Source: Flavivirga amylovorans
GTDB lineage: Bacteria > Bacteroidota > Bacteroidia > Flavobacteriales > Flavobacteriaceae
DNA: 64,000 bases
Assembly (NCBI RefSeq): GCF_030540875.1
Contig: NZ_JAUOEM010000006.1
Span: forward strand, 62,001-126,000
Direction: 5' to 3'
Made by a program: the position numbers and the translations under genes. Positions 48,178 through 56,954 of the stretch are shown here, piece by piece (position 1 is the first letter of the stretch; every line of letters starts with the position of its first letter). The notes beneath the pieces were generated by a model. It did no database searches, was not told where the DNA came from, and saw only the letters and a program-made list of their open reading frames with translations.

Positions 48178-49053
48178 TTACAAAAATTTTACTTTCTTAT
48201 AGTGTTGAGTATAAACTTTAGGCGACATAGACATAAGCGCCTTAAACCTTCTATTAAAATTAGAAATATTATTGAAACCGGATTCGTAACAAACTTTAGA
48301 AATGTTTTTATTTCTTTCCATTAAAAGCTTACAAGCGTACCCAATTCTAACTTCTGTTAAATATTCTGAAAATGATTTACCATTTACTTTTTTAAAAAGC
48401 CTGCTAAATGACGATGGATTCATACAAGCAATTTTGGCAACATCTATAAGTGTTATCTGCTCTTTAAAATGATTAAATATATACTCATAGGCTTTATCTA
48501 AGTTTCTATGACTTCCTTTATTAAACGAATTTATAAACCCCTTGCTAGCTAATAACTCATAAGTTTCACAATGAGCTAAATCATTTAAAACATCAATAAA
48601 ACTCATAATCCTATTAAACCCATCAAGGCTAGAAATCGATTTTATTTTATGTACTAACTCTGGACTAATATTTAGGAATTTAATACCATACATAGATCGC
48701 TCTATTAAATCTGAAATTGGTGCCATCTCATTAATACTTAAAAAATGGTCTCCAAGAAAATCTTGTTTAAAATGAATAGCAATCGCTTCTGCCTTAAGTT
48801 TAGAAGACGCTTCAAAATACTCGTCATCATTCAACCACATATGTGGCAAATCTTTACCTATAAGCACTAAATCTCCCTCATCGAATTTAAGAATACTATC
48901 ACCTACAAATCGAGTCCCTTTACTTTTTATAGATAATACTAATTCAAGCTCTCTATGATGGTGCCAAATTTTTAAAAAATATGGATAATTATGGTGCGTA
49001 ACACTAAATGTATTATTTTTTAAGTCACTTCTATCTATAAAATGAAGTTTCAT
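48178..49053 (-). CDS. AraC family transcriptional regulator with N-terminal cupin domain
   Basis: The 291-residue protein has an N-terminal sensor cupin (HHHRELELVLSIKSKGTRFV, then GDLVLIGKDLPHMW) and two C-terminal helix-turn-helix units of AraC type (ITLIDVAKIACMNPSSFSRL and KVCYESGFNNISNFNRRFKA, ending MSPKVYTQHYKK). It is transcribed divergently from the lgoD-uxaA-uxaB-lactonase cluster with 141 bases between the start codons, so it is the most likely regulator of that cluster. The cupin could bind a sugar or sugar acid such as L-galactose or L-galactonate; this is inference from position. Confidence 0.87.
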   Translation of the reverse strand: MKLHFIDRSDLKNNTFSVTHHNYPYFLKIWHHHRELELVLSIKSKGTRFVGDSILKFDEGDLVLIGKDLPHMWLNDDEYFEASSKLKAEAIAIHFKQDFLGDHFLSINEMAPISDLIERSMYGIKFLNISPELVHKIKSISSLDGFNRIMSFIDVLNDLAHCETYELLASKGFINSFNKGSHRNLDKAYEYIFNHFKEQITLIDVAKIACMNPSSFSRLFKKVNGKSFSEYLTEVRIGYACKLLMERNKNISKVCYESGFNNISNFNRRFKALMSMSPKVYTQHYKKVKFL

Positions 49054-49167
49054 ATACGCTTCTAATTATTGATTTTATTATACAATAATAGCTTAAATAT
49101 TTTTTTTAATGCAATTAAAGTATCATAAATTGCTTTCTATGAGGTAGATTTAACTTAAAAATCGATC

Positions 49168-49175
49168 TAATTTTG
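49168..49175 (+). promoter_or_regulatory. Candidate -7 element of the sugar-acid operon
   Basis: TAATTTTG fits TAnnTTTG exactly 19 bases before the start codon at 49195. That would leave a very short leader of about 13 bases, and no -33 element is well placed, so confidence is low. The shared divergent region 49054-49194 is the natural binding site for the AraC protein. Confidence 0.35.
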
Positions 49176-49194
49176 TGTTCTTAATACAGATTTT

Positions 49195-50205
49195 ATGAAA
49201 TACATTGTTTGCGAAAAGCCAGGAGAATTTCTTTTAAAAGAAAAAGACGCTCCAGTTAGAAAAGAAAATGAAGCATTATTACAAATAAATAAAGTTGGCA
49301 TATGTGGAACAGATCTGCATGCATACTCTGGAAATCAAGCCTTTTTCACTTATCCAAGAATTTTGGGACATGAATTGGCTTCTGAAGTTTTAGAAATAGG
49401 AGACAATCCTCAAGGAATAAAAGCTGGAGATAAAGTAGTTGTTATGCCTTACGTTAGTTGCGGAGAATGCATCGCATGTAGAAATGGTAAAACAAATTGC
49501 TGTACCAACATTACAGTACTGGGAGTACATGGTGATGGTGGCATGCAAGAACAAATAACTGTGCCGACAAATATTTTACTTCCTGCTAACAACCTCACTA
49601 ATGATGAAATGTCTATTGTAGAACCTTTAGCAATTGGTGCACATGCAGTTAGAAGAGCAGATATTAAAAAAAATGAATTTGTAGTGGTTGTAGGTTGTGG
49701 GCCTATAGGAATTGGCATCATGAAATTAGCACAAATTGAAGGAGCAAAAGTCATTGCTTTAGATTTAAACGATGACCGCTTAGCATATGCTAAAGACAAA
49801 ATTGGTGTTGACTACACTGTTAATGTCGGTAATGACCCTGTAAAGCAAATCTCAGAAATAACTAATGGAGATATGGCAACAGCTGTATTTGATGCATCGG
49901 GTCATAAAGGTGCTTTAGAAGCAGGCCCGAACTATATGGCTCATGGGGGACGATTTATATTAGTAGGTTTATCTAAAGGTGAATTAACTTATACCCATCC
50001 AGCAGTTCATGCAAAAGAAATGACATTAATGTGCAGTAGAAATGCAACTACAGAAGATTTTGAACACGTAATAAGCATTTTAAATCAATTCCCAACAGAC
50101 TCTTTTATTACTCACACGGTTCCATTTACAGAAATGATAGAGAATTTTGACAGTTGGTTGAATCCAGAAACTGGCGTTATTAAAGCGACAGTAAATTTTA
50201 ATTAA
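49195..50205 (+). CDS. lgoD: Zinc-dependent MDR dehydrogenase, L-galactonate 5-dehydrogenase (LgoD)-like
   Basis: The 336-residue enzyme is a medium-chain, zinc-type dehydrogenase. Catalytic zinc ligands are C37 (GICGTD) and H59-E60 (GHE); structural zinc cysteines are C89, C92, C95 and C103; the NAD site is VVGCGPIGIG. The stretch GGNQ-type SGNQAFFTYPRILGHE and the NCC-ITVLGVHGDGG block resemble what I recall of E. coli LgoD (YjjN), which oxidises L-galactonate to D-tagaturonate. The following genes encode precisely the enzymes that use D-tagaturonate and D-altronate, which supports this. L-fuconate or another sugar alcohol or acid as substrate remains possible. It is the first gene of the operon under probable control of the divergent AraC protein. 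Confidence 0.72.
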   Translation: MKYIVCEKPGEFLLKEKDAPVRKENEALLQINKVGICGTDLHAYSGNQAFFTYPRILGHELASEVLEIGDNPQGIKAGDKVVVMPYVSCGECIACRNGKTNCCTNITVLGVHGDGGMQEQITVPTNILLPANNLTNDEMSIVEPLAIGAHAVRRADIKKNEFVVVVGCGPIGIGIMKLAQIEGAKVIALDLNDDRLAYAKDKIGVDYTVNVGNDPVKQISEITNGDMATAVFDASGHKGALEAGPNYMAHGGRFILVGLSKGELTYTHPAVHAKEMTLMCSRNATTEDFEHVISILNQFPTDSFITHTVPFTEMIENFDSWLNPETGVIKATVNFN

Positions 50206-50214
50206 ACATTATAG

Positions 50215-51867
50215 ATGTCTAAGAATTACGTACAAATAGATCTCAAAGATAATATTATTGTAGCTATTACACCTCTTGAAAAAGGAACGGTAACTACAAT
50301 TCAAGGTACTGATATTATCTTAAAAGAGACTATAAAACAAAAACATAAGTTCGCCTTAAATGATTTCGCTATAGGTGATGAAATTTTCATGTATGGGGTG
50401 TTAATAGGTAAAGCTATAGAACCTATTCAAGCTGGTTGTGCTATTACTATTGATAATGTAAAACATGCCTCTGCTGAATTTCAAGATTCTAAAGAAAAAT
50501 TTACTTGGTCAGCTCCAGATGCTTCTAAGTTTGAAGGAAGGACATTTAATGGATATCACAGAAAAGATGGTAAGGTAGGAACAGGGAACTATTGGTTAGT
50601 AATTCCATTAACGTTTTGTGAAAATAGAAACGTTGATGTTTTAGAAGGAGCGCTTTCTGAAAAATTAGGATACGAAACAAAAAAAGATTTTGCAGTAGAT
50701 ACAGATGCTCTAATCAATCAATATAAGTCAGGAGCTTCTAAAGAAGCTATCTTAAACACCCCGATTATTACTACGAAGGAAGAAATGACTAAAAATCGAA
50801 TTTTTCCCAATGTAGACGGTATTAAGTTTTTAAAACACGATGGCGGCTGTGGTGGTATTCGTCAGGATTCGGAAACGCTCTGTAAATTATTAGCAGGTTA
50901 TATTGCAAATCCTAACGTAGCTGGAGCTACTATTTTTAGTTTAGGATGCCAGAATGCACAAATAGAAATGCTTCAAAATGCATTGGATGCCATAAACCCA
51001 AACTTAGATAAGCCTGTTCATTATTTAGAACAGCAAAAAAGTGAAAGCGAGCGCCAACTAATTGAAGAAGCCGTTAAACACACATTTTTAGGGTTAATTG
51101 AAGCTAATAAAATTACCCGACAACCTGCACCTTTAAATAAATTAGTACTTGGTTTAGAGTGTGGTGGTTCAGATGGGTTCTCAGGAATATCTGCAAATCC
51201 AGCTTTAGGTTATGCCTCCGATTTATTAGTTGCACTTGGCGGAAGTCCCGTATTATCAGAATTCCCCGAGTTAAATGGTGTAGAACAAGAGATTATCAAT
51301 CGCTGTGAAACAGAAGAGGATTCAAAGAAATTTTATGATTTAATGCGAGCCTATTCTGCTGCTGCAGTAGCAGTGGGATCTGGGTTTGAAAATAATCCTT
51401 CGCCAGGAAACATAAAAGACGGATTAATTACAGATGCCATGAAATCTGCAGGAGCTGCTAAAAAAGGTGGAACATCTCCAGTAACTCAGGTTTTAGATTA
51501 TACAGAACAAGTTACAAAACCTGGTTTAAACTTATTATGTACGCCTGGTAATGATGTTGAGTCTACAACTGGTTTAGTAGGTTCTGGATGTAATGTCGTG
51601 GTATTTACAACAGGGCTGGGTACACCTACTGGTAACCCCGTAGCACCCGTTCTAAAAATGTCTAGTAATACGCATTTGTTCGAAAGAATGAACGACATTA
51701 TAGACATCAATGCAGGTACCGTAATTAGTGGAGAAGACACTATTGAATCTATGGGTGAAAAGATATTAGATCACATTATAAAAGTAGCTAGCGGCGAAGT
51801 TGCTTCAAAAGCAGTACTTCATGGTAATAATGATTTTATTCCTTGGAAAAGAGGCGTTTCTTTATAA
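50215..51867 (+). CDS. uxaA: Altronate dehydratase
   Basis: The 550-residue protein has an N-terminal SAF domain (residues 1-95) and the two GD-AH (galactarate/altronate dehydratase) parts: KVGTGNYWLVIPLTFCENRN, KHDGGCGGIRQDSETLC, FSLGCQNAQIEML, LVLGLECGGSDGFSG, TPGNDVESTTGLVGSGCNVV and GVSL-type C-terminus. The conserved cysteines in GGCGGI, LGCQN and LECGG fit the family's metal/iron site. It dehydrates D-altronate to 2-keto-3-deoxy-D-gluconate. It starts nine bases after lgoD and 76 bases before uxaB. KDG is also the product of KduI/KduD, so both loci lead to the same intermediate. Confidence 0.92.
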   Translation: MSKNYVQIDLKDNIIVAITPLEKGTVTTIQGTDIILKETIKQKHKFALNDFAIGDEIFMYGVLIGKAIEPIQAGCAITIDNVKHASAEFQDSKEKFTWSAPDASKFEGRTFNGYHRKDGKVGTGNYWLVIPLTFCENRNVDVLEGALSEKLGYETKKDFAVDTDALINQYKSGASKEAILNTPIITTKEEMTKNRIFPNVDGIKFLKHDGGCGGIRQDSETLCKLLAGYIANPNVAGATIFSLGCQNAQIEMLQNALDAINPNLDKPVHYLEQQKSESERQLIEEAVKHTFLGLIEANKITRQPAPLNKLVLGLECGGSDGFSGISANPALGYASDLLVALGGSPVLSEFPELNGVEQEIINRCETEEDSKKFYDLMRAYSAAAVAVGSGFENNPSPGNIKDGLITDAMKSAGAAKKGGTSPVTQVLDYTEQVTKPGLNLLCTPGNDVESTTGLVGSGCNVVVFTTGLGTPTGNPVAPVLKMSSNTHLFERMNDIIDINAGTVISGEDTIESMGEKILDHIIKVASGEVASKAVLHGNNDFIPWKRGVSL

Positions 51868-51943
51868 GTTCATAGTTATGAGCACTGAAAACCGAACACT
51901 AAAATAGATTAAGCAAAAAAATAATAGCCAAAAGCTAACAAAA

Positions 51944-53374
51944 ATGAACACATTAAATAGAAATACAGCAAAAGCTAATACTTATACAGAACGCATTATC
52001 CAATTTGGAGAAGGCAATTTTTTAAGAGCCTTTGCCAATTGGATGATTCATGAAATGAATAAAAAAGTAGCTTTTGATGCGGGAGTTGTAGCCATACAAC
52101 CTATCGATCAAGGTTTAATTAAAATGCTAAACGATCAAGACGGTTTATATACATTATATTTAAATGGTATTAAAAACGGACAGGCTATTAGTGAACATGA
52201 CATTATCGATTGTATTCAAAGAGGTATCAACCCTTATGAAAACTACACAGATTATTTAGCAAATGCTGAAAATCCAGACTTACGCTTTGTTATTTCTAAT
52301 ACAACAGAAGCTGGAATTGCTTATAATCCTGATGACACATTAAAAGACACGCCACAATCAAGCTATCCAGGCAAGTTAACAGCGTTACTTTATAAACGAT
52401 TTCAAGCTTTTGGGGGAGCTTCAGACAAAGGTATGATTGTAATACCTTGTGAACTAATAGACAAAAATGGCGATAATTTAAAAAGAATTATTTTGAAGTA
52501 TGCGGCCGATTGGAATTTAGGGGATGCATTTGTAGAATGGATACATGAAGACAATATTTTTTGTAACACTTTAGTCGATAGAATTGTTCCTGGATATCCT
52601 AAAGATAAAATGGACACTATTACTAAAGAATTAGGATACAAAGACAATTTAGTTGTAGAAGGTGAGCAATTCCACTTATGGGTTATTGAAGGGCCAGCTT
52701 CTGTAAAAGAAGAAATCCCTGCTGAAGTTTGCGGTTTAAATATCGTGTTTACAAACAATATGGAACCATACAGAACACGTAAAGTAAGAATCCTAAATGG
52801 TGCACATACAACCTTAGTACCAGTTGGTTATTTATACGGTATAGACAAAGTACGTGAATCTTTAGAAGATGATGTGGTTGGTGGCTTTTTAAAAGATGCC
52901 ATTTTTGAGGAAATCTGTCCAACTTTGGATCTTTCTAAAGAAGAACTGGATCAATTTTCTAATGATGTATTAGATCGTTTTAAAAACCCTTATCTAGAAC
53001 ATGCATTGATTAGTATTTCGTTAAATTCAACATCAAAATACAAAACAAGAGTATTGCCATCGGTGTTAGAATACATTAAAAGAAAAAATGAATTACCTAA
53101 TAGATTGTTATTCTCCCTAGCTTCTTTAATTGCCTTTTATAGGGGTAATAGAGATGGAGAAGCTATTACTTTAAAGGATGACCAATCTGTCTTGGATTTC
53201 TTTGCTTCGCAATGGAAAACAGAAGACATTGCCGGAATTGCAAAAGCAACATTATCCAATACAGATTTCTGGGGAATCGATTTAACAGAATTTGATGGAC
53301 TTCTAGACACAGTAACAACTCATTTAGAAAACATCATCACAAATGGCATGAAGCAAGCATTAAAGACTTTGTAA
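51944..53374 (+). CDS. uxaB: Tagaturonate reductase
   Basis: The 476-residue protein is of the mannitol dehydrogenase superfamily: RIIQFGEGNFLRAFANWMIH at the N-terminal nucleotide site, FVISNTTEAGIAYNP, then the C-terminal catalytic region with YRTRKVRILNGAHTTLVPVG (catalytic Lys in KVRILNGAH) and YLEHALISISLNSTSKYKTR. UxaB reduces D-tagaturonate to D-altronate with NADH. In the galacturonate pathway its substrate comes from UxaC, which is absent from this cluster; here the LgoD-like enzyme would supply it. It is co-directional with uxaA and the lactonase gene (62-base gap). Confidence 0.9.
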   Translation: MNTLNRNTAKANTYTERIIQFGEGNFLRAFANWMIHEMNKKVAFDAGVVAIQPIDQGLIKMLNDQDGLYTLYLNGIKNGQAISEHDIIDCIQRGINPYENYTDYLANAENPDLRFVISNTTEAGIAYNPDDTLKDTPQSSYPGKLTALLYKRFQAFGGASDKGMIVIPCELIDKNGDNLKRIILKYAADWNLGDAFVEWIHEDNIFCNTLVDRIVPGYPKDKMDTITKELGYKDNLVVEGEQFHLWVIEGPASVKEEIPAEVCGLNIVFTNNMEPYRTRKVRILNGAHTTLVPVGYLYGIDKVRESLEDDVVGGFLKDAIFEEICPTLDLSKEELDQFSNDVLDRFKNPYLEHALISISLNSTSKYKTRVLPSVLEYIKRKNELPNRLLFSLASLIAFYRGNRDGEAITLKDDQSVLDFFASQWKTEDIAGIAKATLSNTDFWGIDLTEFDGLLDTVTTHLENIITNGMKQALKTL

Positions 53375-53436
53375 AACCTAATAGTCTTTTAATGATAAAC
53401 TAAAAAAACCACAATAATTAAAATATCAGTATAAAA

Positions 53437-54267
53437 ATGATCATAGACTCTCATCAACATTTTTGGAATTATGAACCTCTAAAACACGAATGGATTGACG
53501 ACAGTATGTCTGCAATTCGTAAAGATTTTTTACCTGATGATTTGAAAAAAGTATACGCTGAAAATGATATTGATGGTTGTGTAGCAGTACAAGCAGATCA
53601 AACTCTAGCTGAAACTGATTTCTTATTAGATCTAGCTTCTAAAAATGATTTCATTAAAGGCGTTGTTGGTTGGATTGATTTAAGATCAGACAACCTAGAA
53701 ACAGATTTAGAAGCCTATAAAGAACATGAAAGACTAAAAGGTTTTAGACATGTGGTACAAGGTGAAGCAGATTCCAACTTTTTATTACGCCCTAATTTTT
53801 TAAGAGGGATTTCAATTTTAGAAAAACATAACTATGTATATGATATTTTGGTGTTTCCTCATCAATTGGGAGCTGTCTTAGAATTTGTAAAACAATTTCC
53901 AAATCAAAAGTTCGTGATTGATCACATCGCTAAACCATATATAAAAGATGGTTTTTATGACGGGTGGGCTATTTTAATGAGAGAAATTGGAACATACGAC
54001 AATGTATATTGTAAATTGTCTGGTATGATCACAGAAGCAGATTTTAATACATGGACACCTACACAAATACATCCGTACATGAATTTAGTTTTGAAAGCTT
54101 TTGGTACTAAAAGAACCTTATTCGGATCGGATTGGCCAGTTTGTTTGGTGGCAGGAAATTATAAAAAAGTAAAAGAATTAGTAACAGAATTTATAGCAAA
54201 AATGAGTTCTACAGAACAAGCTGCCATTATGGGTGGCAACGCTATTAAATTTTACAATTTGAAATAA
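53437..54267 (+). CDS. COG3618 amidohydrolase, L-fucono/L-galactonolactonase-like
   Basis: The 276-residue enzyme has the amidohydrolase metal motif H6-x-H8 in DSHQHFW, a further histidine in FVIDHIAKP and the aspartate in LFGSDWPV. This is the COG3618 group (TIM-barrel lactonases) that includes L-fucono-1,5-lactonase and the 2-pyrone-4,6-dicarboxylate lactonase relatives. It would hydrolyse the lactone formed by the neighbouring SDR to the free aldonate, that is L-galactonolactone to L-galactonate, or L-fuconolactone to L-fuconate. The two sugars differ only at C6, and known family members accept related lactones. It is co-directional with its neighbours (16-base gap to the SDR). Confidence 0.82.
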   Translation: MIIDSHQHFWNYEPLKHEWIDDSMSAIRKDFLPDDLKKVYAENDIDGCVAVQADQTLAETDFLLDLASKNDFIKGVVGWIDLRSDNLETDLEAYKEHERLKGFRHVVQGEADSNFLLRPNFLRGISILEKHNYVYDILVFPHQLGAVLEFVKQFPNQKFVIDHIAKPYIKDGFYDGWAILMREIGTYDNVYCKLSGMITEADFNTWTPTQIHPYMNLVLKAFGTKRTLFGSDWPVCLVAGNYKKVKELVTEFIAKMSSTEQAAIMGGNAIKFYNLK

Positions 54268-54283
54268 TAAAAAACATTTAAAA

Positions 54284-55075
54284 ATGGATTTAGGATTAAA
54301 AGGAAAAGTAGTTGTTATAACGGGAGCTGCAGGAATTGAGGGTAGTATAGGAGAAACCATTTTACAAAAATTAGCAGACGAAGGTGCTACTCCAGCCGTA
54401 ATAGATAGAAATGCCAGAGGTTTTGGTTATGTTGAGAAATTACAAAAAAGAGGTATTGATGCTATATTTTGTCAAGCCGATGTTACAAATCCAGATCAAA
54501 TAAAAAGTGCCATTCAAACTATTTCAGAAAAATATGGCAGAATAGATGTTGTAATTAATAATGTTGGAGTAAACGATGGTGTTGGACTAGATGCTTCTTA
54601 TGAAGATTTTATGAACTCATTAAAATTAAACATGGTTAGTTATTTTTTAACCGTAAAACATGCCTTACCATTGCTAAAAAAGTCAAAAGGAAATATCCTA
54701 AACATTGGCTCTAAAGTAGGCTTAACTGGCCAAGGAGGGACATCTGGCTATGCTGCATCTAAGGGAGGTGTACTAGGATTAACACGTGAATGGGCTGTAG
54801 ATTTAATCAAAAATCAAATTAGAGTTAATGCTATAATTATAGCAGAAAGCTGGACACCTGCTTACGATAATTGGATAAAAACACTTGAAAATGGTGAAGA
54901 AAAATTGAAGTCTATCGTTAAAAAAATTCCTTTACAAAATAGAATGACAACTCCGGGAGAGATTGCAGATACTTGCCTTTTCACAATATCAAATAAATCA
55001 TCACATACCACCGGTCAGTTTATATTCTGCGATGGTGGGTATGTACATTTAGATCGATCTTTATTAACCGAATAA
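54284..55075 (+). CDS. SDR, L-fucose/L-galactose 1-dehydrogenase-like
   Basis: The 263-residue SDR has a slightly extended nucleotide loop (TGAAGIEGSIGE), NNVGVNDGVGLDA in place of plain NNAG, the catalytic Ser in NIGSKVGLTGQGG and SGYAASKGG, and a C-terminus SHTTGQFIFCDGGYVHLDRS. This set, especially NNVGVND and the C-terminal GGYVHLDR, is characteristic, as I recall, of bacterial L-fucose dehydrogenases, which oxidise L-fucose and often L-galactose to the lactone. With the lactonase before it and the FucP permease and mutarotase after it, it forms the first oxidation step. Substrate preference cannot be read from sequence. Confidence 0.78.
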   Translation: MDLGLKGKVVVITGAAGIEGSIGETILQKLADEGATPAVIDRNARGFGYVEKLQKRGIDAIFCQADVTNPDQIKSAIQTISEKYGRIDVVINNVGVNDGVGLDASYEDFMNSLKLNMVSYFLTVKHALPLLKKSKGNILNIGSKVGLTGQGGTSGYAASKGGVLGLTREWAVDLIKNQIRVNAIIIAESWTPAYDNWIKTLENGEEKLKSIVKKIPLQNRMTTPGEIADTCLFTISNKSSHTTGQFIFCDGGYVHLDRSLLTE

Positions 55076-55164
55076 TAAATCATTTGTTATATAATTTAAA
55101 ACAAAATAATCTGCTTTTGAATTGATTAAAGAATATATTTATCAACAAACTTAAATAATGTTTT

Positions 55165-56505
55165 ATGAGTAAGCTTAAAAATATACCTGTAGTACCTAAA
55201 AAGTTATTAATTCCTTTCATTGCCGCAACATCAATTTTTGCACTATGGGGATTTGCAAACGATTTAACAAATCCAATGGTTGCTGCATTTAAAAAAGTTA
55301 TGGTACTTTCTAACAAGGAAGCTTATAATGTACAATTTGCTTTTTACTTCGGATATGGAGTTATGGCAATTCCAGCAGCTCTATTTATAAGAAAGTTCAG
55401 CTACAAATCAGGTATTTTACTCGGTTTAGCATTATATGCAATTGGAGCCGTACTTTTCTATCCTGCAGCCCTCGAAGGAAGTTATACCTATTTTTTAATT
55501 TCTCTATTTGTTATTACTTGTGGTCTTGGATTTCTTGAAACTACTTCAAACCCATTAATTTTGTCAATGGGAGATCCATCAACGGCCACGCAACGACTAA
55601 ATTTGGCTCAATCCTTCAATCCTATTGGCTCTTTAACAGGAATGATGGTAGCAAAATTCGTTGTTTTAGATAGAATTTTATCTGCAGACTATGATGATAG
55701 CTCTGAAATTGTAGCTTTAGGGACAGAAAAAGCCGCAGAGATTAAAGCGCATGATTTAGACATTATAAGTACGCCATACATTGCTGTAGGTATATTTGTA
55801 GCTGTTGTTTTCTTTATTATATGGAAAACAAAAATACCTTCAATGACTATGGGTGAAAACTTATCAATTAAAGAATCTGTAAATAGAATCTTTAAAAGCA
55901 AAACATATTTAGCAGGTGTTATAGCTCAGATGTTTTATGTTGGCGCACAAATTATGTGTTGGACAGCTATTTTTCAATTAGTTGAATATATTAATGAAAG
56001 TTCTATAAAAGCAAATCAAATTGATGGCACATTTTGGAATATCGCAGCCATGGTCTTATTTGTATCTACTAGATTTATTGGAACAGCTCTTATGAAAAAA
56101 ATTAATCCTGCTAAAATGTTAACTATTTTTGCAATTGCTGGTGCTATACTTTGCCTTGGAGTAATGACTACCACTGGGATAACAAGTTTAGTTTGTCTTG
56201 TATTAGTTTCTGTATTTATGTCAATTATGTTTCCAACCATCTATGGCTTAGCACTTAAAGATATGGGAGAAGAAGTGAAACTTGCTTCTTCTGGTCTTAT
56301 AATGGCTATTGTAGGTGGAGCATTTTTACCGAAAATTCAAGCTTCAATTATGGATTTTGGAGATACAGTAAATGATAAAGAAGTGTTTGGTGATGTCGTT
56401 ACTGGTGGAATGACTGAAATACATTTTTCATTTATATTACCAATGATATGCTTAGTTTTTGTTGCTATTTATGGTCTTTATGCATATAGAGTTACAAAAA
56501 ATTAA
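55165..56505 (+). CDS. fucP: FucP-type L-fucose/L-galactose:H+ symporter (MFS)
   Basis: The 446-residue protein has twelve membrane segments and the FucP/GGP pattern: AATSIFALWGFANDLTNPMV near the N-terminus, then GYGVMAIPAALFIRKFSYKS, GLGFLETTSNPLILSMGDP, LAQSFNPIGSLTGM and FPTIYGLALKDMGEEVKLAS. FucP transports L-fucose and related sugars such as L-galactose with a proton. The position inside the L-galactose/L-fucose set favours that substrate over glucose or galactose, which other family members use. It begins 89 bases after the SDR and is followed by the mutarotase gene after 27 bases. Confidence 0.88.
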   Translation: MSKLKNIPVVPKKLLIPFIAATSIFALWGFANDLTNPMVAAFKKVMVLSNKEAYNVQFAFYFGYGVMAIPAALFIRKFSYKSGILLGLALYAIGAVLFYPAALEGSYTYFLISLFVITCGLGFLETTSNPLILSMGDPSTATQRLNLAQSFNPIGSLTGMMVAKFVVLDRILSADYDDSSEIVALGTEKAAEIKAHDLDIISTPYIAVGIFVAVVFFIIWKTKIPSMTMGENLSIKESVNRIFKSKTYLAGVIAQMFYVGAQIMCWTAIFQLVEYINESSIKANQIDGTFWNIAAMVLFVSTRFIGTALMKKINPAKMLTIFAIAGAILCLGVMTTTGITSLVCLVLVSVFMSIMFPTIYGLALKDMGEEVKLASSGLIMAIVGGAFLPKIQASIMDFGDTVNDKEVFGDVVTGGMTEIHFSFILPMICLVFVAIYGLYAYRVTKN

Positions 56506-56532
56506 TTATTAAAAAACAGTTATATTATAATT

Positions 56533-56880
56533 ATGAGTATTAAAAGATATTGCTATTCGTGCGATTTAAAAGATGATTCTAAGCTTATTGCCGAATACAA
56601 AGAGTATCATGCTGCTGGTAATGCATGGCCAGAAATAACGAAAAGTATTAAAGATGCTGGCATAGTTGATATGGAAATTTACTTAACAGGAAATAGAATG
56701 TTTATGATTATGGAAGTTGATGACACTTTTGATCCTGTAAAAAAATCTGAAATGGATGCTAACAATCCTAAAGTACAAGAGTGGGAAAATCTTATGTGGG
56801 ATTACCAACAAGAATTACCTTGGGCTAAAGATGGTGAAAAATGGATTGCACTAGAGAAGGTATTCAAATTAGAAGAATAA
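56533..56880 (+). CDS. L-rhamnose/L-fucose mutarotase family protein
   Basis: The 115-residue protein is of the RhaM/DUF718 family (L-rhamnose mutarotase) and starts MSIKRYCYSCDLKDDSKLIA; EIYLTGNRMFMIMEVDD and NPKVQEWENLMWDYQQELPW are family blocks. These small ferredoxin-fold proteins interconvert the alpha and beta anomers of 6-deoxy-sugars, providing the form the dehydrogenase needs. In clusters with FucP and an L-fucose-type SDR the homologues are thought to act on L-fucose or L-galactose. It is the last gene of the operon and is followed by a good terminator. Confidence 0.85.
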   Translation: MSIKRYCYSCDLKDDSKLIAEYKEYHAAGNAWPEITKSIKDAGIVDMEIYLTGNRMFMIMEVDDTFDPVKKSEMDANNPKVQEWENLMWDYQQELPWAKDGEKWIALEKVFKLEE

Positions 56881-56916: not shown

Positions 56917-56954
56917 AAAAAAATAGAGCAACTATAAGTGGCTCTATTTTTTTT
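56917..56954 (+). terminator. Terminator of the sugar-acid operon
   Basis: AAAAAAATAGAGC and GCTCTATTTTTTT enclose an 11-base loop, followed by T residues. It lies 37 bases after the mutarotase stop codon and is symmetrical enough to work in both directions. Confidence 0.8.

Follow-up and report, generated by a model that had tools for sequence, protein, structure and literature searches.

A gene cluster of Flavivirga amylovorans proposed to take L-galactose to 2-keto-3-deoxygluconate

Porphyran and agar-type galactans contain L-galactose units. A cluster of seven same-direction genes with a divergent AraC-family gene, located in a 64,000-nucleotide stretch of the Flavivirga amylovorans genome (the window; contig NZ_JAUOEM010000006.1, positions 62,001 to 126,000), is probably an operon for this sugar, taking in L-galactose and yielding 2-keto-3-deoxy-D-gluconate (KDG), as judged from its sequence and from related loci. 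In Bacteroides (Phocaeicola) vulgatus, Bvu0219, Bvu0220 and Bvu0222 reportedly (work attributed to Hobbs 2014) convert L-galactose through its lactone into L-galactonate and then D-tagaturonate, which passes to hexuronate enzymes. Compared by description, the window cluster shares with that system a COG3618 lactonase (as reported for B. vulgatus) and a separate L-galactonate dehydrogenase, the latter of the LgoD family by sequence only, but it also holds UxaA, UxaB, FucP and RhaM, and it lacks the first enzyme of the aldo-keto reductase (AKR) type: the B. vulgatus enzyme groups with AKR-type L-galactose dehydrogenases, whereas that of the window is a short-chain dehydrogenase/reductase (SDR). 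Acidovorax avenae is said (Watanabe 2019) to invert C5 of L-galactonate with two dehydrogenases before an altronate dehydratase acts, and its route, unlike that proposed for the window, reportedly leads into a non-phosphorylating branch that L-fucose uses as well. The B. vulgatus pathway is cited in the study of Luteolibacter, in which the whole L-galactose route was shown with tested enzymes and mutants (PMC12632266).

The Luteolibacter LG18 cluster lguABCDEF resembles that of the window in grouping an L-galactose dehydrogenase, an L-galactonate 5-dehydrogenase, a tagaturonate reductase and an altronate dehydratase, in the divergent regulator beside the cluster and in a KDG kinase gene outside it (PMC12632266). 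It differs in carrying a 2-keto-3-deoxy-6-phosphogluconate (KDPG) aldolase gene, in also serving L-glucose through LguG, and in its first enzyme, which groups with Bvu0219 and plant L-galactose dehydrogenase (GALDH) and not with SDRs; its published gene list names no lactonase, transporter or mutarotase (PMC12632266). The lgoD-uxaA-uxaB (or uxaF) loci of Halomonas and Chromohalobacter, predicted for L-galactonate, have the same three core genes, however they are served by a TRAP transporter for the acid, whereas the window genes would let the cell take up and oxidise the free sugar (PMC5507952). The non-phosphorylating L-fucose pathway of Xanthomonas, Herbaspirillum and Campylobacter likewise uses a mutarotase, a dehydrogenase and a lactonase, with FucP in Campylobacter, but continues with fuconate dehydratase followed by a 4-dehydrogenase and hydrolase, or by an aldolase, and neither LgoD nor UxaB is in the gene lists consulted (PMC11199699, PMC6946681, PMC9100392). 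The chemistry of the pathway is therefore already published, and the gene set described here is a variant, common in related flavobacteria, that is distinguished by an SDR as first enzyme, by the presence of a mutarotase and a transporter for the sugar alongside UxaA and UxaB, and by a link in relatives to alpha-L-galactosidase-like enzymes of glycoside hydrolase family 29 (GH29). A description of this operon for Flavobacteriaceae was not found in the open-licence literature searched, which is a weak negative, and little was found there on the use of free L-galactose by marine Bacteroidota after polymer cutting.

All eight genes are open frames, and all of the families that an earlier note had read from the sequence are present. 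The seven plus-strand genes are closely spaced, with gaps of 9, 76, 62, 16, 89 and 27 bases from LgoD to RhaM. The features of the cluster are as follows.

48178-49053, minus strand: AraC-family regulator, divergent (PF12833, 77.9 bits, cut-off 33.6)
49054-49194, no strand: divergent intergenic region, likely promoter/operator by position only
49195-50205, plus strand: LgoD-like Zn dehydrogenase, proposed L-galactonate 5-dehydrogenase (sequence comparison, motifs)
50215-51867, plus strand: UxaA-type dehydratase, proposed D-altronate dehydratase (domains, sequence comparison)
51944-53374, plus strand: UxaB, D-tagaturonate reductase (curated model NF002969)
53437-54267, plus strand: COG3618 amidohydrolase, proposed L-galactono/L-fucono-1,5-lactonase (family, PDB match, motifs)
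54284-55075, plus strand: SDR aldose 1-dehydrogenase of the L-fucose dehydrogenase family, proposed L-galactose dehydrogenase (NF052481)
55165-56505, plus strand: FucP-type sugar:H+ symporter of the major facilitator superfamily (TIGR00885)
56533-56880, plus strand: RhaM-family mutarotase, 115 amino acids (PF05336, 109 bits, cut-off 23.4)
56917-56953, plus strand: terminator-like hairpin with T-rich stretch (-15.1 kcal/mol, z -3.94)

In the proposed pathway, FucP would import L-galactose, RhaM would speed anomer exchange, and the SDR would oxidise C1 to give the 1,5-lactone, which the amidohydrolase would open to L-galactonate. The LgoD-like enzyme would oxidise C5 of L-galactonate to give D-tagaturonate, UxaB would reduce the same carbon with opposite stereochemistry to give D-altronate, and UxaA would dehydrate this to KDG. 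From there KDG may be processed by the KDG kinase and KDPG aldolase encoded on another contig (C13), with the AraC protein as the probable sensor. We infer every substrate, every reaction direction and the single transcript of the seven genes from sequence, and the conversion of L-galactonate into D-altronate by LgoD and UxaB, as put forward in the earlier note, appears well supported by comparative evidence (the loci of relatives, the AKR and GH29).

UxaB scores 688 bits on its curated model (NF002969; cut-off 359), is 46% identical to E. coli UxaB, and is the sole match in the genome, which comprises 13 contigs and 4.86 Mb and is 99.99% complete. Set against three E. coli dehydrogenases, the LgoD-like protein is nearest to LgoD (41% over 337 columns, against 31% for RspB and 29% for threonine dehydrogenase, Tdh); it contains GHE and Cys4 motifs, which we take to be the catalytic and structural zinc motifs, and none of its PDB matches is named L-galactonate dehydrogenase. 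The UxaA-type protein has SAF, GD_AH_second and GD_AH_C domains, all over the Pfam cut-offs, does not reach the galactarate model (279, cut-off 731), and is only 31% identical to E. coli UxaA over 549 columns. The lactonase belongs to COG3618 (PF04909, 162 bits; PDB 4dlf, E 1.5e-55) with HQH, GFRH, DH and GSDWP motifs present, and FucP is over the L-fucose:H+ symporter cut-off (TIGR00885, 480 bits against 280) and 32% identical to E. coli FucP. The SDR is the only protein of the genome over the L-fucose dehydrogenase cut-off (NF052481, 351 bits against 300), and its best PDB relatives are 6drr (E 2e-61) and 4gkb (E 1e-73), the latter presumably BmulJ_04919 of Burkholderia. 6drr is Campylobacter FucX, and L-galactose is among the substrates of BmulJ_04919, however both enzymes are weak on it (PMC6946681). 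Because these characterised relatives take L-galactose, but weakly, membership of the SDR family leaves the sugar undecided, and a match to NF052481 does not separate L-fucose from L-galactose. The glycine-rich cofactor loop of the SDR (TGAAGIEGSIG) is three residues longer than in 4gkb and 6drr, and similar loops occur in relatives.

A search for the LgoD family (E <= 1e-70) identified members in 83 of 397 Flavobacteriaceae genomes, that of F. amylovorans included; 92 of the 94 LgoD places were fetched, and 85 loci are of the window's LgoD type. A named set of 80 loci, kept from 268, was also compared, the nearest being those of Flavivirga rizhaonensis (LgoD 96% identical) and Flavivirga algicola (94%), and in the four nearest (L191-L194) the AraC gene has the same position as in the window. 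Near LgoD in the 85 loci are found UxaB (53), UxaA (46), the lactonase (63), the SDR (59) and FucP (58), and UxaB is present in 57 of the 80 named loci. Since the LgoD family occurs in 83 of the 397 genomes and UxaB lies nearby in 53 of the 85 loci, this gene grouping exceeds chance. In the relative loci, the UxaB encoded between UxaA and the lactonase mostly falls into one of two groups, with 70-92% or 39-48% identity to that of the window, and a few are intermediate (57, 64, 64 and 65%).

L-Galactose is favoured as the substrate because of the lower pathway (UxaB and KDG kinase), the replacement of the SDR by an AKR in some relatives, and the linkage of the operon to GH29 genes. The SDR is found in 59 of the 85 loci and an AKR in 6, and in the named set in 56 and 9 of 80, with no locus in either set containing both. 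For one such AKR, five of seven PDB matches, the top four included, are called L-galactose dehydrogenase, the best being modest (84 bits, E 1.5e-22). In the F. algicola locus (L193), the operon contains one GH29 gene and has a further one upstream. The upstream enzyme scores 444 and 435 bits against PDB 7snk and 7ljj, with other fucosidases at or below 280, and the inner enzyme scores 346 and 340 bits against 293 for other fucosidases; 7snk and 7ljj are both BpGH29, a porphyran exo-alpha-L-galactosidase (PMC12316285). GH29s sharing 70% identity or more with the upstream enzyme were counted in 12 of the 85 loci, each of which has UxaB, and in 21 of the 80 named loci, of which 17 have it.

In Polaribacter porphyrae (L230), a relative of porphyranase B (E 7e-151) stands beside the operon, and a second GH16 is nearest a beta-porphyranase; both are near the operon and a GH29 of the group just counted. 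Genes resembling the L230 porphyranase are present in 4 of the 85 loci (38-78% identity) and in 5 of the 80 named loci, L230 included, the other four being 31-47% identical. A red-algal source of the sugar, claimed for the window at the outset, is thus likely for some relatives, given their GH29 and porphyranase-like neighbours, but could not be extended to F. amylovorans, where the operon itself has no GH29 and a search of the genome, run without a positive control, found no porphyranase-B-like gene. Eight GH29 matches lie elsewhere in this genome, the best at 51-52% identity.

KDG kinase and KDPG aldolase genes, for which the earlier note had proposed a search, were both found, side by side behind a LacI gene (C13:41621-43365). 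The two enzymes are 94% and 80% identical, respectively, to those linked to the operon in relatives, and the LacI gene is 68% identical to one in the corresponding place in a relative. The kinase-aldolase pair lies inside the operon in Aquimarina agarilytica (L267), L205, L199 and others, occurring in 12 of 53 UxaB loci as against none of 14 loci with an FAH hydrolase, an enzyme of the L-fucose pathway (small numbers), and in 18 of the 57 UxaB loci of the named set. KDG kinase phosphorylates the 6-hydroxyl, which L-fucose-derived acids lack, and this chemical argument carries more weight than the contrast in counts. UxaB and the FAH hydrolase also tend to avoid one another among the 85 loci, with 2 having both, 51 UxaB only, 12 FAH only and 20 neither (Fisher p 9e-5, with no correction for relatedness). 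Direct observation covers gene content, family membership, conservation, linkage and the presence of the kinase and aldolase genes. Two further discriminators were tried and rejected: the SDR motif AESWTPxY is present in most SDRs of both UxaB and FAH loci, with Y for W in a minority of those in FAH loci, and genome-wide absence of UxaB does not mark FAH-type clusters, UxaB being over the cut-off in all 16 genomes asked (F. amylovorans included; 14 hold an FAH locus).

Several observations weigh against L-galactose as the substrate. Among the enzymes, the LgoD-like protein is below the cut-off of the PRK10083 Zn-dependent oxidoreductase model (NF007489, 202 bits against 376), an LgoD paralogue on contig C9 is equally near E. 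coli LgoD (41%), the lactonase is below the L-fucono-1,5-lactonase cut-off (NF052480, 277 bits against 400), and the two characterised SDR relatives, being weak on L-galactose (PMC6946681), would count in the same direction, as do the lack of growth of Campylobacter jejuni on this sugar and the failure to find a porphyranase-B-like gene noted above. Among the loci, the kinase-aldolase contrast without the two shared loci becomes 12 of 51 against 0 of 12, which is only suggestive because it is not significant alone (Fisher p 0.10), and a further 5 loci, which have UxuA but no UxaB, carry the pair as well. LgoD relatives adjoin an L-fucose-type SDR2/FAH pair in 14 of the 85 loci, 12 of them without UxaB, and, outside Flavobacteriaceae, in L177 and L188, again without UxaB; LgoD therefore does not mark L-galactose exclusively. 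In L067, L068 and the named locus L235, LgoD, lactonase, SDR, FucP and RhaM genes face L-lactate-utilisation-type genes (LUD and CCG domains, checked in L235 only), FAH and SDR2, with no UxaB and no recognised fuconate dehydratase in the locus. Several relative loci are likewise without a recognised fuconate dehydratase, and the fuc locus of Algoriphagus marincola has also been noted to lack one (PMC5507952). In the LgoD tree, UxaB and SDR2/FAH contexts are intermixed, with 63 of 167 inner branches weak, and LgoD-type enzymes may act in mixed L-fucose/L-galactose loci.

These points raise the question of whether L-fucose comes first, with FucP, RhaM, SDR and lactonase serving that sugar, UxaA acting as L-fuconate dehydratase and L-galactose being a side substrate. 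Both SDR and FucP are over the cut-offs of L-fucose models, FucI was not found in the genome (PF07881, 0 of 1; control matches 3 of 14), known SDR relatives prefer L-fucose (PMC6946681), the D-altronate dehydratase family is promiscuous, with some signal on L-fuconate for one member that was screened (PMC6336799), and UxaA-type genes occur in Campylobacter fuc clusters, where a knockout showed that one of them, Cj0483, is not essential (PMC9100392). The earlier argument that an L-fucose-only pathway would need neither UxaB nor UxaA accordingly holds for UxaB but is weak for UxaA, and because relatives of both LgoD and UxaA occur in L-fucose-type clusters, the exclusion of L-fucose rests on UxaB and the kinase. 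By known chemistry, however, L-fucose requires neither of these two; the cluster frames include no 4-dehydrogenase, FAH hydrolase or 2-keto-3-deoxy-L-fuconate (KDF) aldolase (a statement on the cluster only, as no genome-wide search for them was made), the operon of relatives is accompanied by a GH29 resembling alpha-L-galactosidase, and the genome has two other clusters that could serve 6-deoxy sugars (L006 and L133), making an L-fucose-first operon unlikely. A single operon for both sugars, with a fork after the lactonase, is less improbable, doubtful but not far-fetched: BmulJ_04919 and the P. mimosarum AKR act on both (PMC6946681, PMC6336799), and FAH/SDR2 loci share the same upper genes (lactonase and SDR) as UxaB loci, but the window cluster has none of the 6-deoxy branch enzymes that such a fork would call for, the genome not having been searched for FAH. 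One of the two other clusters, L006 (C1:472000-491000), encodes a UxaA-type dehydratase without SAF domain, an RraA-like protein, a KduD-like SDR, a sodium:solute symporter, a sulfatase, an AraC-type protein 41% identical to that of the window and a GH29 nearest the BpGH29 exo-alpha-L-galactosidase.

It was also claimed that uxaC is missing and that LgoD replaces it. One copy was identified (638 bits) on contig C1, and it is absent only from the cluster, whose uxaA and uxaB are on C10; LgoD as a stand-in for a lost UxaC is rejected accordingly. A D-galacturonate branch in which UxaC, from its own locus, feeds UxaB and UxaA thus has its gene, together with the fact that the window uxaB is the only copy, and in Flammeovirga a tagaturonate reductase and an altronate dehydratase with consecutive gene numbers have been read as such a branch (PMC5385347). 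The ordinary galacturonate branch, named in the earlier note as the alternative, is however only half borne out: uxaC adjoins UxuA, SDR and TRAP transporter genes, which is a glucuronate-type set, and does not share a locus with UxaB and UxaA as expected for D-galacturonate pathways. At the centre of the operon, moreover, are a lactonase, FucP and a dehydrogenase for aldoses, none of them needed for galacturonate, and this branch is very unlikely to be its purpose. UxaB may still be shared with galacturonate use, and any D-galacturonate use by the UxaB route would pass through the window UxaB, since it is the only one in the genome. Equally improbable is an order in which UxaA dehydrates first to 2-keto-3-deoxy-L-galactonate and LgoD and UxaB then invert C5, as in 3,6-anhydro-L-galactose breakdown. 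This order has been proposed for agar pathways (PMC10163077), and a D-altronate dehydratase family member has 2.4% relative activity on L-galactonate (PMC6336799), but UxaB belongs to the tagaturonate reductase subfamily and the order tested in Luteolibacter is to epimerise first (PMC12632266).

Dehydration first may apply instead to the cluster that holds the LgoD paralogue on C9 (L133 6613-12437, C9:318475-324299), which encodes an enolase-superfamily dehydratase, a KduD-like SDR (KduD models give it 211-220 bits, short of the cut-offs), an AKR sharing 57% identity with that of the operon type, the paralogue, a FucP relative, RhaM and a divergent AraC protein. The order dehydratase-SDR-AKR-LgoD is kept in all seven such loci, that of F. 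amylovorans included, FAH hydrolase and KDPG aldolase reference proteins are unmatched in all seven, and GH29 genes adjoin the cluster in five. Read as dehydrating first, the arrangement would resemble the anhydro-L-galactose pathway as proposed (PMC10163077). A tentative suggestion, rather unlikely but not remote, is that the genome has two ways of taking L-galactose to KDG, which differ in when C5 is inverted, with the window genes epimerising first and the C9 genes dehydrating first; the C9 genes could equally be a 6-deoxy-sugar cluster.

The window operon, if for L-galactose as proposed, offers a marker for use of this sugar in genomes and metagenomes, and genes annotated as FucP, L-fucose dehydrogenase or fuconolactonase may stand for L-galactose and not for L-fucose. 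At its borders, the region scanned has no more promoter-like matches than shuffled sequence (37, where shuffles average 47.6). Only 2 of 200 shuffles fold as well as the hairpin at 56917-56953, which is absent from the list of a consensus terminator scan that itself performed at or below chance. Downstream of the hairpin are genes for a GntR regulator, a xylulokinase-like protein and xylose isomerase, which look like a separate unit.

Elsewhere in the window, positions 13305-35972 form a polysaccharide-utilisation-type stretch with a large regulator, a SusC/SusD-like pair, two PF10091 proteins, and GH3, GH2, GH97, esterase and sulfatase genes, and KduI- and KduD-like genes with two further sulfatases lie at 5-13 kb (the names of the regulator, SusC/D, KduI and KduD were assigned by eye). 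Of the 92 LgoD loci fetched, 16 carry a gene of the PhyH (phytanoyl-CoA dioxygenase) family, one of them being L088 (8382-9272).

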